From the NCBI GenBank assembly GCA_029934055.1, contig JAOZMZ010000008.1:1-41287 (forward strand): a stretch of DNA of 41,287 nucleotides. Reading direction: 5' to 3'. Shown piece after piece: positions 9,000 to 17,860 of the stretch. This DNA is from Kiritimatiellia bacterium (GTDB lineage Bacteria; Verrucomicrobiota; Kiritimatiellia; B70-G9). The position numbers were made by a program, and so were the translations under genes. Under the pieces are notes generated by a model that was not told the DNA's origin, made no database searches, and worked only from the letters and a program-made list of their open reading frames with translations. Positions within the stretch are counted from its first letter, which is position 1, and every line of letters begins with the position of its first letter.

Positions 9000-10520
9000 A
9001 TGAGGGTGGTGGCTATGAACGCGGAAAGTCTTCCCGGCCAGCAGGAATATCGCGAGCAGATCATCTGTCCGAGTTGCGGGCGTTTCGTCGGTCCGCTGAC
9101 ACGTTGTCCGTATTGCGGGGCGCGGATCCGCAAAAGGTTGAGCGTGCGGCTGTTTCGTTACCTGGCGCTTCTGCTGGCGACGGTGGGGCTGTTTTTCTTG
9201 TATCTGATGGCCACCCACCGGGAGGTGCCGCGTATCCGCGTGGGAGATATCCGTCCGACGATGAATTTCGCCTACGTGCGGGTGGCGGGACTGGTGAGCA
9301 GCGATGCGCGCATATACCGGGAGGGGGATGCGGTGCGCAGTCTGCGGTTTACGGTCGACGACGGCAGCGGTGAGATTCCGGTGACGGCTTACCGGGCGCA
9401 GGCGCGGGAGCTGGTGGCCTCCGGGCGGGTGCCGCGAATGGGGGACAAGGTTGAAGTCGCCGGCAGCCTCAGCGTAGCGGCCGACGACCGGGTGATGATG
9501 CGCCTGCAGAGTCCCGACCAGCTCATACTGACGCGGGCGGAACTCCCCCTGATGCCGCTGGGAAGTGTGAGCACGAACGACGTGGGCCGCAGTATAATGG
9601 TAAAAGGTGTGATAAGCGACATTCGGGCGCCGCGTCCCAACAGCCGGGCGCCGTGGCTGATTCGGGTGAGTGATTCTTCCGGCGAAAAGGGGATATCCTT
9701 CTGGGATGACACGTATGCGGAGATCGCGGACAAGGACCGCCTGGTGCCGGGCGCGGCGGTGCGCGCGCGGGTGAGCGTGGGGACTTTTCGCGGACGGGTT
9801 CAGTTGCGGCTTGCGAGCGGCCGGGATCTCGAATTTCTGCAGGGAGAAGAGGCGGCGGCGGTTTCCGCGGGTGTGCGGCCGGAGGGACGCTACGAGAGAA
9901 CGCCGATCAGCGCCTTGAAACCATCCATGGTGGGGCGGGAAGTCGAAGTGAGCGGGCGGGTTCTGGACGTGCGGCCGCCCAGGGAGGGTTCGCGGGCTCC
10001 CTGGCGGGTGGTGCTGGAAGAGGATGGGGCCCAGGTGATGGTGGTCTACTGGGACAAGGTCGCCCGCCATCTGCGGGCGAAGCGGCCGGAGAAGGGCGCC
10101 TATCTGGTGGTTCGCGGGCGTTTGGCGGTTTACCGCGGCAGGCTTCAGCTCAAGGTGAGCAATTCGCGGGATATCGAGTTGACGCGGGCCCCGCAGCATG
10201 CGCCGGACGCCGGCAGCGGCGGGGGCGGGATTCTTCCGATAGCGAAGATCACTCCCGAGATGAAAGGGCGCATCGTGCGGGTTCGGGGTATATTGGGTCA
10301 GGCGCGTTCGATTCCCGGCGGGGTGGTTTATCAGTTGAAGGACGACAGTGGGGAAATAAAGGTGGTTCTGTGGGATCGTTTCGTTTCCGGGGAGGCGCGC
10401 GACGCGCTTGATACGGGCCGGCGGGTGCGGGTGAGCGGGAAGGTGTCCGAATATCACGGGCAGTTGGAGATAGTTCCTCAAGGTGCCTATCAGGTGGTGG
10501 TCGAGGACGGCGGAGAATGA
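9000..10520 (+). CDS. Membrane-anchored zinc-ribbon protein with four OB-fold repeats
   Basis: This 506-residue protein has a CPSC/CPYC zinc ribbon (Cys23, Cys26, Cys36, Cys39), one transmembrane helix (about 52-71) and four successive OB-fold-like repeats at about 80-178, 188-281, 303-395 and 412-500. Repeats 2 to 4 share a hydrophobic/aromatic-Trp-Asp strand (FWDD 234-237, YWDK 350-353, LWDR 457-460) and a late strand of the type YRGRLQL. Tandem OB folds of this type usually bind nucleic acid, but the protein also looks envelope-anchored, so ligand and orientation are open. ATG 9000 has GAGGG upstream; ATG 9015 is an alternative. It overlaps the TctA-like gene by ATGA, implying translational coupling. 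Confidence 0.75.
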   Translation: MRVVAMNAESLPGQQEYREQIICPSCGRFVGPLTRCPYCGARIRKRLSVRLFRYLALLLATVGLFFLYLMATHREVPRIRVGDIRPTMNFAYVRVAGLVSSDARIYREGDAVRSLRFTVDDGSGEIPVTAYRAQARELVASGRVPRMGDKVEVAGSLSVAADDRVMMRLQSPDQLILTRAELPLMPLGSVSTNDVGRSIMVKGVISDIRAPRPNSRAPWLIRVSDSSGEKGISFWDDTYAEIADKDRLVPGAAVRARVSVGTFRGRVQLRLASGRDLEFLQGEEAAAVSAGVRPEGRYERTPISALKPSMVGREVEVSGRVLDVRPPREGSRAPWRVVLEEDGAQVMVVYWDKVARHLRAKRPEKGAYLVVRGRLAVYRGRLQLKVSNSRDIELTRAPQHAPDAGSGGGGILPIAKITPEMKGRIVRVRGILGQARSIPGGVVYQLKDDSGEIKVVLWDRFVSGEARDALDTGRRVRVSGKVSEYHGQLEIVPQGAYQVVVEDGGE

Positions 10521-11851
10521 GTCTGGTACTGACAGTAGTGGTGTCGGTGCTCATCGGCACGCTGATTTCGACGGTACTTTCGTGCCTGCCGGGGTTGCAT
10601 GTTTACAACGTCATCGGGTTGCTGGTTCTCCTGGTGTTGACCCTGGGCTCGCACGGGGTCACCTTGCCGCCGGAGGTGTACCTGCCGTTCATCGCGGGAA
10701 TGATCGTGGGCTGGTCCATGCTGAACACGATTCCCTCGGTTTTCCTCGGGGCGCCGGATGAGAGTGCGATTTTCACCGTGTTGCCCGGGCAGAAGTATCT
10801 CATGTTCGGGCGGGGATTCGAGGGAGCCATGATCACCGGGGTCGGCGGCCTGGCGGGGGTGTTTTTCCTGGTGCTGGTGGTGGGACCTCTGGCCCCGCAC
10901 TATTTGCCGGTGGTCCAGCAGGTCATGCGGCCGCATATGCACTGGGTCCTGTGGGTGATCATAACCTATATTCTCATGTCCGAGTGGCCCAAGGGGGGTA
11001 ACTGGGGCCCGGCGGGCTGGTCGAAATTCTTCGACGCATGGCGTTCCCTTCTGGCGGGACTGGCGACTTTTCTGCTGGCGGGCCTGCTGGGGTTCATCCT
11101 CCTCTACCGTTCGCCGGTTTCGACGGACATGGCTTTTCAGAACATCATGCCGGCGTTCGTCGGGCTGTTCGCGGTCCCCTGGTGTCTGGTGAACATGATA
11201 AGCGGCGTTTCCGTGCCGGAGCAGCATGTCGCCGCATCCCTGGATATAGACGGGGACGTTATTCTGCGCAGCGTCGGGGCGGGTGGGCTGGGGGGTGGTT
11301 TCGCGGCCTTCTTTCCGGTGATCACCGGTGGTGTGGGGGGACTCCTGGCAGGGCATGCCACCGCCCAGCGCGACGAGCGCGTCTTCCTGATGTCGCAGGG
11401 GGTTTCCAAACTGGTCTACTATACCGGTGCTTTCATGCTGGCCTTTGTTCCGGGGCTGGGTATTACGCGTGGCGGAGGCGCCTGGTTGATCCGGACGCTC
11501 TACACCCCGCGCACGTACTATGACTATTTCATGATTCTGGGCGCGGTTGCTATCGGCGGTGCGGCGGCGTATCTGATGATGGAACCGCTGACGCGCGGGA
11601 TCATATGGCTGATCCGGAGGTTCAACTACCGCTACGTGTCGGCGGCGGCGCTGGTGATCATCATGGCGCTGGTATACGCCATCACCGGCTGGGTGGGGAT
11701 TTTCATTGCCGCGGTGGGTACAGGGATCGGACTCATCCCGGTGCTTTTTGCATCACGGCGGCTGAACTGTCTCGGCATCCTGTTGTTGCCGATCGCCTGC
11801 AACATGTCGGGCGTCGGGCATCACGTGGCGGCCTTTTTGCATTTGGTATGA
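10517..11851 (+). CDS. TctA/DUF112-family integral membrane protein
   Basis: The 444-residue protein has about ten to twelve hydrophobic helices. It shows the internally duplicated TctA pattern: TLISTVLSCLPGLHVYN (15-31) in the first half and GGFAAFFPVITGGVGGLLAG in the second. The first loop is followed by GAPDESAIFTVLPGQ. TctA is the large permease subunit of tripartite tricarboxylate transporters. The PGLHxxN form resembles the archaeal DUF112 branch, which works without the usual TctB and TctC partners, and none are encoded here. Substrate is unknown. The start overlaps the OB-fold gene stop as ATGA, and the stop overlaps the next gene as ATGA, so the three are a tightly coupled unit. Confidence 0.75.
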   Translation: MSLVLTVVVSVLIGTLISTVLSCLPGLHVYNVIGLLVLLVLTLGSHGVTLPPEVYLPFIAGMIVGWSMLNTIPSVFLGAPDESAIFTVLPGQKYLMFGRGFEGAMITGVGGLAGVFFLVLVVGPLAPHYLPVVQQVMRPHMHWVLWVIITYILMSEWPKGGNWGPAGWSKFFDAWRSLLAGLATFLLAGLLGFILLYRSPVSTDMAFQNIMPAFVGLFAVPWCLVNMISGVSVPEQHVAASLDIDGDVILRSVGAGGLGGGFAAFFPVITGGVGGLLAGHATAQRDERVFLMSQGVSKLVYYTGAFMLAFVPGLGITRGGGAWLIRTLYTPRTYYDYFMILGAVAIGGAAAYLMMEPLTRGIIWLIRRFNYRYVSAAALVIIMALVYAITGWVGIFIAAVGTGIGLIPVLFASRRLNCLGILLLPIACNMSGVGHHVAAFLHLV

Positions 11852-12852
11852 AGGGTATATCACATTTTATTTCCGGGGTGGCGGCGGCGTCGTTCTGCCC
11901 GTGGGCGGTGCAGGCGGCGCAGGAGGGCAACCCTCTATATTTTATCCTGGGAGGAGCTTTCGGGCTCCTGCCGGACACGCTGGACTTCAAGTTCTACAGG
12001 TTTTTCTACCGCCACGAGATGTACGTCGATCCGGACCCCGAGAATCCCGATCCGCAGGCCATCGCGGATGCACTGGCGGATGCCGTGAGGCGCGCGGGTG
12101 AGGAGGGCCGACGGGTGCGGATAAAGCTGAACACCATCCGGCTCGGAGCGGATTTCTGGCGCCAGTATGTGGTCAAGTTCGATCCCGATGCCGGGGAGGT
12201 TCTGGTACGGTTCGGGCCGGTGGTGAATACCGGGCAGGTCCCCGTTCCGGGCACGGGAGGGGACGAGCGGGTCGGCCGGGCGAAGCTGGCGTTTCCGGTT
12301 GTGCAGACGTACGATGCGACGACGAGCGTGGACATCTTCGATGGCCCGACGTTCGCTTTCACGCGCGATGAGAGCGGTCGGGTGGTGATTCATTTTCTGC
12401 CGTGGCATCGGGAGTGGTCGCACAGCTTCGTTATCGGGGCGTTGTTCGCGCTGGCGGGGTGGGCGCTGTGGAGCTGGAAGGCGGCGGTGGTGATCATGGC
12501 GGGCTACTCGATACACGTTTTGGAAGACCAACTCGGGTTCATGGGTTCGAATCTCTTTTTTCCGTTTTCGCGGCGTCGTTTTCCGGGCATACACCTGATG
12601 CGTTCGGGAGACGCCCTGCCGAACTTCACGACCGTCTGGACCAGTTGCCTGCTGATATTCTGGAACCTGTATCGCCAGGGTCCGCCGTCGATATACAACT
12701 TTAGTTTTCTGCAACTGTTGGTATACGGGGCGGTATTGCCGCTGGGGTTGTTTGCGGCGGCGATCTACTTCGTGCGGCGGCTTTCCGGCGGGGGGGAGGA
12801 AAGCGAGGAGATAGACCTCTCAGACGAGTGGGGCGATCCGAAGATGTCGTGA
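11848..12852 (+). CDS. YdjM-like membrane-bound metal-dependent hydrolase
   Basis: This 334-residue protein starts at the ATG that overlaps the TctA-like stop (ATGA, 11848-11851). It has the YdjM/DUF457 pattern of His and Asp residues in and near membrane helices: HFISG (6-10), GLLPDTLDF (39-47), WHREWSHSF (186-194) and IHVLEDQLGFMGS (222-234). Family members are predicted zinc-dependent hydrolases of the inner membrane; the E. coli protein is LexA-regulated. A soluble segment of about 125 residues (58-182) is inserted between the LPD and HREWSHS motifs, and an acidic tail ends the protein. The frame is open further upstream to 11605, but that part overlaps the TctA-like gene. Substrate unknown. 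Confidence 0.75.
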   Translation: MKGISHFISGVAAASFCPWAVQAAQEGNPLYFILGGAFGLLPDTLDFKFYRFFYRHEMYVDPDPENPDPQAIADALADAVRRAGEEGRRVRIKLNTIRLGADFWRQYVVKFDPDAGEVLVRFGPVVNTGQVPVPGTGGDERVGRAKLAFPVVQTYDATTSVDIFDGPTFAFTRDESGRVVIHFLPWHREWSHSFVIGALFALAGWALWSWKAAVVIMAGYSIHVLEDQLGFMGSNLFFPFSRRRFPGIHLMRSGDALPNFTTVWTSCLLIFWNLYRQGPPSIYNFSFLQLLVYGAVLPLGLFAAAIYFVRRLSGGGEESEEIDLSDEWGDPKMS

Positions 12853-15553: not shown

Positions 15554-17860
15554 ATGAGCGGCATGGCGATGGACGAGCATGCGCTGGAGATTTTTCGGCG
15601 GACGTTGAGTCTGGACGAGTCTGAGCTGGAGGCGACCTATACCGAATTCCGCAGCCGCCGGGACGATAAGAAGGCGGAGGCCGCATCCGAGGAGGACGAA
15701 TTCCTGTCCTACCTGCGCCGCCGGGGCGTTATTTCGGACGACACCTACCGCCGCGCGGCGGCGATGATGCCGGTCGAGGTGACCGGTCGGGCTGGGGCCT
15801 CTTCGGTGATGGAATCCATCCGCTACGACCTGTTCGATACCATCGCCGAAGGCGCCATGGGTACGATCGTCGTCGGCCGGGACCGCGATCTGCGCAGGAA
15901 GGTTGCGGTCAAGATCCTCAAGGCCGAACCGGTTTCGGAGGATGTCCTGCGGCGTTTCATCGGCGAAGCGCAGGTCACTGCGCAGCTTGATCATCCCAAC
16001 ATCGTCCCGATCTACAGCCTCAACATTTCTCCGGAAGGCAGCGTTTCGTTTGCGATGAAGTTGGTGCATGGCAAGACCCTCAGAGAATTCATCGCCGAGA
16101 CGCGGGGGCAGTACCGCGCGCGCGGGCGTCCGGACGGTGAACATTCCCTGCACGCCCGGCTGGCGGTTTTTCTGAGAGTGTGTGATGCGATCGCTTTTGC
16201 CCACAGCAAGGGAGTGATCCACCGCGATCTCAAGCCCGACAATATCATGATCGGCGAGTTCGGGGAGGTGTACGTCATGGATTGGGGGGTGGCGCGGGTG
16301 GTTTCCGGGAAGGGGGAGGGCGGGGAGTGCGCGGAGAACGTCGTTCCGTCACCGTCCGACGAATGCAAGGTCATCGGCACGCCGCGTTACATGGCCCCGG
16401 AACAGGCCCGCGGCGAGTGCACGCGGGTGGACGAGCGCAGTGATCTTTATGCGCTTGGGATAATGCTTTTCGAGTTGACGTTGCTCAAGCCGGCTCGGGA
16501 GGGAGAGACCCTGCGGGAGATGCTGCGCAATGCCGAGGAGGGCAGGCTGGCACCGCTGGAACACGCCGTGGCCGGTGAGCGGGTACCGGTGGAAATCAAG
16601 GCCATTGTGCGCCGGGCGACGGCGTTGAGGATGGACGAGCGCTACGCTACTGTCCGGGAGCTGGCGGATGATATCCGCCGGTTTCTGCGTGGCGAAGAAG
16701 TCCGGGCGAAGCCGGATACGCTGATTCAGAAATACGCGCGCATTCTCGGGCGCCACCGTTACGGTGCGCTGGTGGCGTTGCTGGCGGCATTCGGCATTGC
16801 GGGTGTGGGAGGCAGCTTGGGGTTGTACGCCCGGATCAAGTCCATGCGGCTTGCGCACTTGCGGGAGAACCGCCTGGCGGCGTTCCAGTCGTCCGTGGCG
16901 CGGCGCAGTCACCTGATAGATAGTCATTTCGTACGCCTTGAAGAGAAGGCGATTCATCTGGCACGCAGCAGTGCCCTGCTGCTCGAGCACGGCAGGCCGG
17001 CCGGGACGGCGGTGTATGAGTACAAGGCCTTCGGCCGGCATGGTGAGGGTGTGCCGGGGTTGGCGTACGCCCCGGCTTACGGCATGCGCGTCAGCCTGGA
17101 ATACCCGGCCTGCAAGGTTCCCGAAGGTCATACGTTTCGCGAATCGGAGGAGAGTTTCCGCCGTTTGGCCCCCTTGAGAGAAGAAATGCGCGGGATTCTC
17201 GAGGGCAGCCGCATTGATCGTGAAAAGGATCCGCACTGGTGTATCAGGGTGCCGGGCACTGTGGTCAAGTGGGCCTACGTGGGGTTGGAAGGCGGTGAGT
17301 ACATGTGTTATCCGGGGTCGGGCGACTATCCTGCCGACTACGACCCGCGCCGCAGGCCGTGGTACCGGCGGGCCGTTGAGGCCGACGCGCCGGTATGGAG
17401 CCGGCCGTATGTAGACATCGACGGGCATACTCTGGTGCTGACTTGTTCGGTTCCAATTCACGGTCGCGAGGGCGGGCTGTTGGGGGTGGCCGGAATAGAC
17501 TTGCTGGTCGAGGCGATCGTGGAGAACTACGCCAGACCCGCCGCGCGGAGGGCGATATCTTCGGGGACGGAAGCGGCGCCGGTACTACGGGCCTGGCTGT
17601 TGGATGGTGAGGGGCGTATCCTGATTGACTCAGGCGGGGGGCCGCGTCCGGGTAGGATCGAGGAAGGAGTCTTCAAGCCGGCGTTATTCTTTGATGAACA
17701 GGTGGTGAGATCTGCCAGGCTGGGGCGACCGGGTCTCTTTCACCGCGGACACGGGCGTAGCGCCCGCGCTCTTGTGAGTTGTCCGGTACCGTCGCTGGGG
17801 TGGGCATATGTGGAGTCGGCGGACATGGGCTGGCTGCTGGGTGACGCCTTTTTCAGATGA
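15554..17860 (+). CDS. Transmembrane Ser/Thr protein kinase with Cache-like sensor domain
   Basis: This 768-residue protein has an N-terminal helical region (1-85) and a Hanks-type kinase domain (about 92-380). One membrane helix follows (403-425), then an extracytoplasmic C-terminal half. Kinase residues are visible: EGAMGTIVVG (99-108), Lys120, Glu138, HRDLKPDN (223-230, catalytic Asp225), DWG in place of DFG (243-245) and GTPRYMAPEQA. The outer part resembles a dCache sensor, with YDPRRRPWYRRA (596-607) and VDIDGHTLVLTCSVPI. It probably couples an external small-molecule signal to phosphorylation. It lies 11 bases after rmlB, so it may report on or control envelope sugar synthesis (inference). 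Starts at Met4 or Met6 are possible. Confidence 0.9.
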   Translation: MSGMAMDEHALEIFRRTLSLDESELEATYTEFRSRRDDKKAEAASEEDEFLSYLRRRGVISDDTYRRAAAMMPVEVTGRAGASSVMESIRYDLFDTIAEGAMGTIVVGRDRDLRRKVAVKILKAEPVSEDVLRRFIGEAQVTAQLDHPNIVPIYSLNISPEGSVSFAMKLVHGKTLREFIAETRGQYRARGRPDGEHSLHARLAVFLRVCDAIAFAHSKGVIHRDLKPDNIMIGEFGEVYVMDWGVARVVSGKGEGGECAENVVPSPSDECKVIGTPRYMAPEQARGECTRVDERSDLYALGIMLFELTLLKPAREGETLREMLRNAEEGRLAPLEHAVAGERVPVEIKAIVRRATALRMDERYATVRELADDIRRFLRGEEVRAKPDTLIQKYARILGRHRYGALVALLAAFGIAGVGGSLGLYARIKSMRLAHLRENRLAAFQSSVARRSHLIDSHFVRLEEKAIHLARSSALLLEHGRPAGTAVYEYKAFGRHGEGVPGLAYAPAYGMRVSLEYPACKVPEGHTFRESEESFRRLAPLREEMRGILEGSRIDREKDPHWCIRVPGTVVKWAYVGLEGGEYMCYPGSGDYPADYDPRRRPWYRRAVEADAPVWSRPYVDIDGHTLVLTCSVPIHGREGGLLGVAGIDLLVEAIVENYARPAARRAISSGTEAAPVLRAWLLDGEGRILIDSGGGPRPGRIEEGVFKPALFFDEQVVRSARLGRPGLFHRGHGRSARALVSCPVPSLGWAYVESADMGWLLGDAFFR

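Follow-up and report, generated by a model that had tools for sequence, protein, structure and literature searches.

A conserved three-gene cassette of OB-fold, TctA-like and YdjM-family proteins in Kiritimatiellae and its possible role in nucleic-acid handling at the membrane

We analysed a 41,287-nucleotide stretch of DNA (contig JAOZMZ010000008.1 of assembly GCA_029934055.1, positions 1 to 41,287, forward strand; hereafter the window) from a Kiritimatiellae-type Verrucomicrobiota metagenome-assembled genome of 2.2 Mb that is 89% complete (taxonomy inferred from relatives). The window carries a cassette of three genes, all on the + strand, flanked by a divergent pnp/rpsO region and by sugar-nucleotide genes (rfbA, rfbD and rfbB, by reading). 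They encode a membrane protein with OB domains (9000..10520), a TctA-like membrane protein of 444 amino acids (10517..11851) and a YdjM-family membrane hydrolase of 334 amino acids (11848..12852). ATGA start/stop overlaps join the OB gene to the TctA-like gene (10517..10520) and the latter to the YdjM gene (11848..11851), and both recur in relatives. The three reading frames and the two overlaps are as described in the initial annotation of this DNA, which had also proposed that the proteins are made together and probably form one machine.

At least 13 Kiritimatiellae families share the gene order OB-TctA-YdjM, about seven of them with -4 bp overlaps at each of the two junctions. The adjacency thus extends well beyond close relatives, a point that the annotation had suggested should be checked. 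The TctA-like family was found in 51 of 388 genomes from the phylum, all of the same class. TctA and YdjM were each sought in 57 relatives with a profile or query of their own (E <= 1e-30): 25 genomes have both, 30 have neither, one has TctA only and one YdjM only, the TctA gene being degraded there (Fisher p = 6.6e-14, a value that ignores shared descent). Four genomes (G004, G008, G015 and G020) carry YdjM on a different contig, unlinked to TctA. Matches to the TctA-like family were also found in 13 of 400 Chloroflexota genomes, one of them weak; all 12 clear carriers encode YdjM and a membrane OB protein of the cassette type, although in most of them the three genes are unlinked. In contrast, none of 20 sampled non-carriers has a cassette-type YdjM, and their OB matches are weak only (1e-7 or worse). 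In two genomes, G394 and G395, OB and TctA are present and YdjM was undetected. The distance matrices of TctA and YdjM correlate (0.95 in Kiritimatiellae and 0.83 in Chloroflexota, with a contribution from shared species history), and in G035 the two genes have decayed jointly, both being fragments. Since the order and the overlaps recur in many families and the genes covary even where unlinked, the arrangement is not due to chance, and we are confident that the cassette is one functional unit. The proposal of a single machine is thus strongly supported, above all by the co-occurrence of unlinked genes.

Several further variants of the locus were seen. Cassettes that look to be decaying, with TctA fragmented or frameshifted and YdjM broken, occur in G035, G043, G265 and G290 (L196, L197, L198, L207 and L208), and the YdjM gene of G013 is split by an insertion with two transposase-like open reading frames (L053:6204-8179). 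The complete cassette occurs twice at L038 (G028:C28, with L117 and L141): the copies are divergent and lie back to back, their OB proteins being long in one and short in the other. A second, distant copy of TctA is also present in G024 and G187. In some Chloroflexota the TctA-like gene is followed by a conserved protein of about 140 amino acids without a Pfam match (L173:8777-9199, L174:3158-3595, L175:9529-9963, L176:9021-9440 and L177:7560-7982).

The product of the first gene, 506 amino acids long if counted from 9000, consists of an N-terminal zinc ribbon, a single transmembrane helix and four OB domains. Translation probably begins at the second ATG, at 9015 (M6), rather than at 9000, because relatives begin at M6 and this residue is invariant in alignment A3. 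The zinc ribbon (CPSC...CPYC, residues 23-39; 9066..9116), predicted to be cytoplasmic, is recognised from a pair of CxxC motifs at residues 23 and 36, its Pfam score being below the cut-off; it is absent in some relatives, and the alignment of relatives leaves only the transmembrane helix and OB1 as universal parts. The transmembrane segment (residues 47-74; 9138..9221) has basic residues on its N-terminal side, from which the OB domains are predicted, by the positive-inside rule, to be extracytoplasmic. OB1 (9237..9524; motif MNFAYVRVxG) is the sole OB domain common to all relatives, whereas OB2-OB4 (9537..10493), repeats resembling those of replication factor A (RPA), have been gained and lost, their number varying from 0 to 3. 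In a Pfam profile search PF01336 matches the protein in four stretches (89 bits, 1.5e-25), and an OB profile compared with the PDB gave archaeal RPA proteins as top matches (1.4e-7), followed by CST Stn1 and YhaM. PF13567 (ComEC DUF4131) scores above cut-off in L246 and L247, and hhalign gave 75% for OB1. An OB protein of a nuo operon, however, scores equally, and we therefore did not rely on these hits for reading OB1 as a stand-alone ComEC OB domain. NADH-dehydrogenase operons of Chloroflexota encode a secreted or anchored OB-fold protein between nuoF-like and nuoG-like genes (L237:6856-7863, L239:6582-7559, L241:7049-8038, L245:6058-7454, L250:6467-7474 and L254:6542-7552). A second OB protein found in Chloroflexota carriers proved, in most cases examined, to lie within such operons and to be unrelated.

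The second protein belongs to a distant branch of PF01970 (111 bits against a cut-off of 28.9, covering profile positions 2-422 of 423). Within the phylum, PF01970 scores fall into two separate groups, with 70-123 bits for the cassette family and 455-493 bits for canonical TctA, nothing between them and, besides these, only two matches below the cut-off. BLASTP detected no similarity between the protein and a canonical TctA of the same phylum (E = 0.26). The family has invariant residues H28, D81, E156, W157, R318, R414 and R415, and its PGLHxYN signature is absent from the canonical TctA compared. Its structure model (pLDDT 88.5) has no PDB counterpart by Foldseek. No TctB or TctC gene recurs beside the cassette in the window or in relatives, as judged by reading of open reading frames and neighbour clustering, no genome-wide search having been made. 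These results fit the earlier description of the protein as of archaeal DUF112 type without TctB/TctC partners; PF01970 proteins are present in Methanocaldococcus jannaschii, Haloferax volcanii and Methanosarcina acetivorans, which served as control genomes. The cassette shares a TctA-family membrane protein with the tripartite tricarboxylate transporter TctABC but differs in its neighbours, its scores and its signature. The window's TctA-like protein had no matches on plasmids, archaeal plasmids included, whereas canonical TctA occurs in 810 plasmid records. With no matches for the TctA-like protein in the phage, plasmid and viral sets, and none for the YdjM protein in plasmids, an origin from such elements was rejected.

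The third gene starts at 11848, within a longer mechanically called open reading frame; almost all relatives have the N-terminus MKGIxHF or MKGFxHF. Its product matches PF04307 with 54.1 bits (cut-off 29), and the match is found in 26 of 26 homologues, in all of which the predicted metal ligands H6, D43, D46, H192, H223 and D227 are invariant. YdjM proteins are LexA-regulated membrane hydrolases. Published profile comparisons link the family with phospholipase C, Het-C and S1-P1 nuclease and note its coupling to a beta-sandwich domain (PMC8557891). The cassette protein shares the family match and the pattern of histidine and aspartate ligands with YdjM proteins, but is longer by about 130 residues, among which a beta-rich domain (residues ~90-184) interrupts the family core between its two halves in the structure model (pLDDT 86.7); its gene also differs in following TctA in operons.

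The OB-TctA arrangement extends to plasmids of the cyanobacteria Pseudanabaena galeata (L274) and Cylindrospermopsis curvispora (L275), where a diverged TctA-like protein is encoded immediately downstream of an OB protein whose N-terminus contains a hydrophobic segment. The cyanobacterial TctA-like proteins carry the signature PGIHxN, and that of Pseudanabaena scores 150 bits against profile A2, compared with 5 bits for a canonical TctA. On the Cylindrospermopsis plasmid the gene after the pair encodes a NERD nuclease-related domain.

The initial annotation could not match the trio to a named system. For the three genes together this still holds in the literature we found, but the OB and TctA-like pair matches, by description, MMJJ_13020 (OB fold, one transmembrane helix) and MMJJ_13030 (TctA-like, 11 transmembrane helices) of the archaeon Methanococcus maripaludis, each of which is essential for natural transformation (PMC10133366). 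The two genes, which carry consecutive locus tags, were found by Fonseca et al. (2023) in a transposon screen with clean deletions, and Methanoculleus thermophilus, too, cannot be transformed without its TctA homologue (PMC10133366). The authors proposed MMJJ_13030 as the DNA transporter; which protein forms the DNA channel in archaeal transformation is an open question, with the TctA-like protein as the foremost candidate (PMC10133366). As in this pair, the cassette combines a single-helix OB protein with a neighbouring TctA-like one that has about 11 transmembrane helices (11 or 12 here), without TctB/TctC, and it agrees with the pair in every checkable feature, by description rather than sequence. 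It differs in that its hosts are bacterial and have ComEC, in that it nearly always includes a third member, a YdjM hydrolase, and in that its OB protein often has extra OB domains and a zinc ribbon. The parts list of OB domain, polytopic channel and predicted hydrolase or nuclease also resembles that of ComEC, whose OB and nuclease domains were proposed in silico (PMC5031224). In the cassette, however, the parts are three polypeptides, the channel family is unrelated, a separate ComEC is encoded in the same genome, and no match to the PF03772 Competence domain was found by Pfam search in any of the three proteins.

These comparisons suggest that the cassette might encode one machine of the cytoplasmic membrane that acts on nucleic acid, with DNA import as its likeliest task, an explanation that we favour tentatively and to which we give slightly less than even confidence. 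We regard the cassette as a real and apparently undescribed three-part bacterial version of the poorly understood archaeal pair, to which, we infer, the bacterial proteins are orthologous. The anchored OB protein would bind single-stranded DNA, the presumed cargo, outside the membrane; the TctA-like protein would form the conduit, with transport presumably directed inwards; and the YdjM protein may act as a metal-dependent phosphodiesterase, of nuclease or phospholipase type, on the incoming strand or the adjacent membrane. The initial annotation had put forward a comparable putative sharing of tasks, with ligand binding by the OB folds, transport by the permease and processing by the hydrolase. 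The jobs combined in ComEC (OB domain, channel and nuclease) would thus be split over three polypeptides. We counted in favour of nucleic acid the RPA-like OB profile, the NERD gene of the Cylindrospermopsis plasmid and the archaeal transformation phenotypes (PMC10133366). PilT is present in all 57 relatives, so pili may be available, though as a co-occurrence test this is uninformative. It is conceivable, if doubtful, that the module amounts to a second, ComEC-independent DNA translocase, present in several bacterial phyla and shared with archaea, made up of an OB receptor, a TctA-family channel without a solved structural counterpart and a strand-processing phosphodiesterase of YdjM type.

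Several observations weigh against import of DNA by the cassette. ComEC (PF03772) is present in 56 of the 57 relatives, including the window's genome, so the module does not replace ComEC in them, and a complementary distribution of the two is ruled out. Neighbour clustering in relatives revealed no competence, recombination or pilus genes recurring beside the cassette. The OB fold is unspecific: the unrelated OB protein of NADH-dehydrogenase operons matches the same Pfam models, ComEC DUF4131 among them, and for this reason the fold alone is weak evidence for nucleic acid. The YdjM model had no solved structural match at E <= 0.001 in Foldseek, leaving its nuclease/phospholipase C fold unconfirmed in this analysis. 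Finally, the recurrent gene neighbourhoods of two sub-lineages point towards the envelope: one holds genes of Mla phospholipid transport, the other a LolA-like gene and a pair of CNNM genes. Such contexts keep alive the alternative of an envelope lipid module, in which the TctA-like protein would move a lipid or polyprenyl carrier, the YdjM protein would act on the carrier as a phospholipase C-like hydrolase, and the OB protein would be an extracytoplasmic adaptor. An Mla operon (MlaE, ATPase and MlaD) lies directly upstream of the OB gene in six loci (L039, L040, L041, L051, L055 and L202), the LolA-like gene and two consecutive CNNM/CorC genes lie upstream in many Kiritimatiellae families (L047, L058, L059, L060, L061, L062, L066, L068, L204-L207 and L209), and phospholipase C is among the published relatives of YdjM (PMC8557891). 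Each context, however, is limited to part of one class, and neither is seen in the window or in Chloroflexota; the OB domains resemble RPA, and the archaeal pair is needed for transformation while its mutants are viable (PMC10133366). We regard a lipid module as unlikely, though the main competitor.

Nucleic acid might also be handled for a purpose other than transformation, be it to feed on extracellular DNA, to export DNA or to defend the cell at its membrane. The same evidence from the OB, TctA-like and YdjM proteins would apply, and coexistence with ComEC would be accounted for. The archaeal phenotype, however, is transformation, neither defence nor secretion genes recur as neighbours, and no PADLOC family matched, so that a defence system as such was rejected and we consider this group of roles distinctly unlikely. 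A solute transporter, with the TctA-like protein carrying organic acids as in tripartite tricarboxylate transporters and the OB and YdjM proteins as accessories, appears more improbable still: PF01970 membership above the cut-off speaks for it, but the lack of adjoining TctB/TctC, the clean separation from canonical TctA in PF01970 scores, the missing BLASTP similarity to a canonical TctA, and the many plasmid records of canonical TctA against none for the window's protein all argue against it. That the genes are neighbours without joint function, as might be thought given how frequent overlapping genes are in compact genomes, is hardly credible in view of their co-occurrence without linkage in two phyla and the recurrence of the OB-TctA order on cyanobacterial plasmids.

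What was already known of such a system is the archaeal OB-TctA pair, by phenotype only; its distribution in bacteria and the near-constant YdjM partner are apparently undescribed in the literature searched. The OB-TctA arrangement is now seen in Verrucomicrobiota, Chloroflexota and Cyanobacteriota, with the near-constant third partner in the first two, which makes available numerous sequences, an enzymatic partner that can be assayed and bacterial hosts in which to experiment. If the cassette does import DNA, the presence of ComEC would not cover all of the DNA-import capacity of bacteria. Elsewhere in the window, downstream of the sugar-nucleotide genes, lies a gene (15554-17860) for a large Ser/Thr protein kinase whose C-terminal region resembles a sensor.

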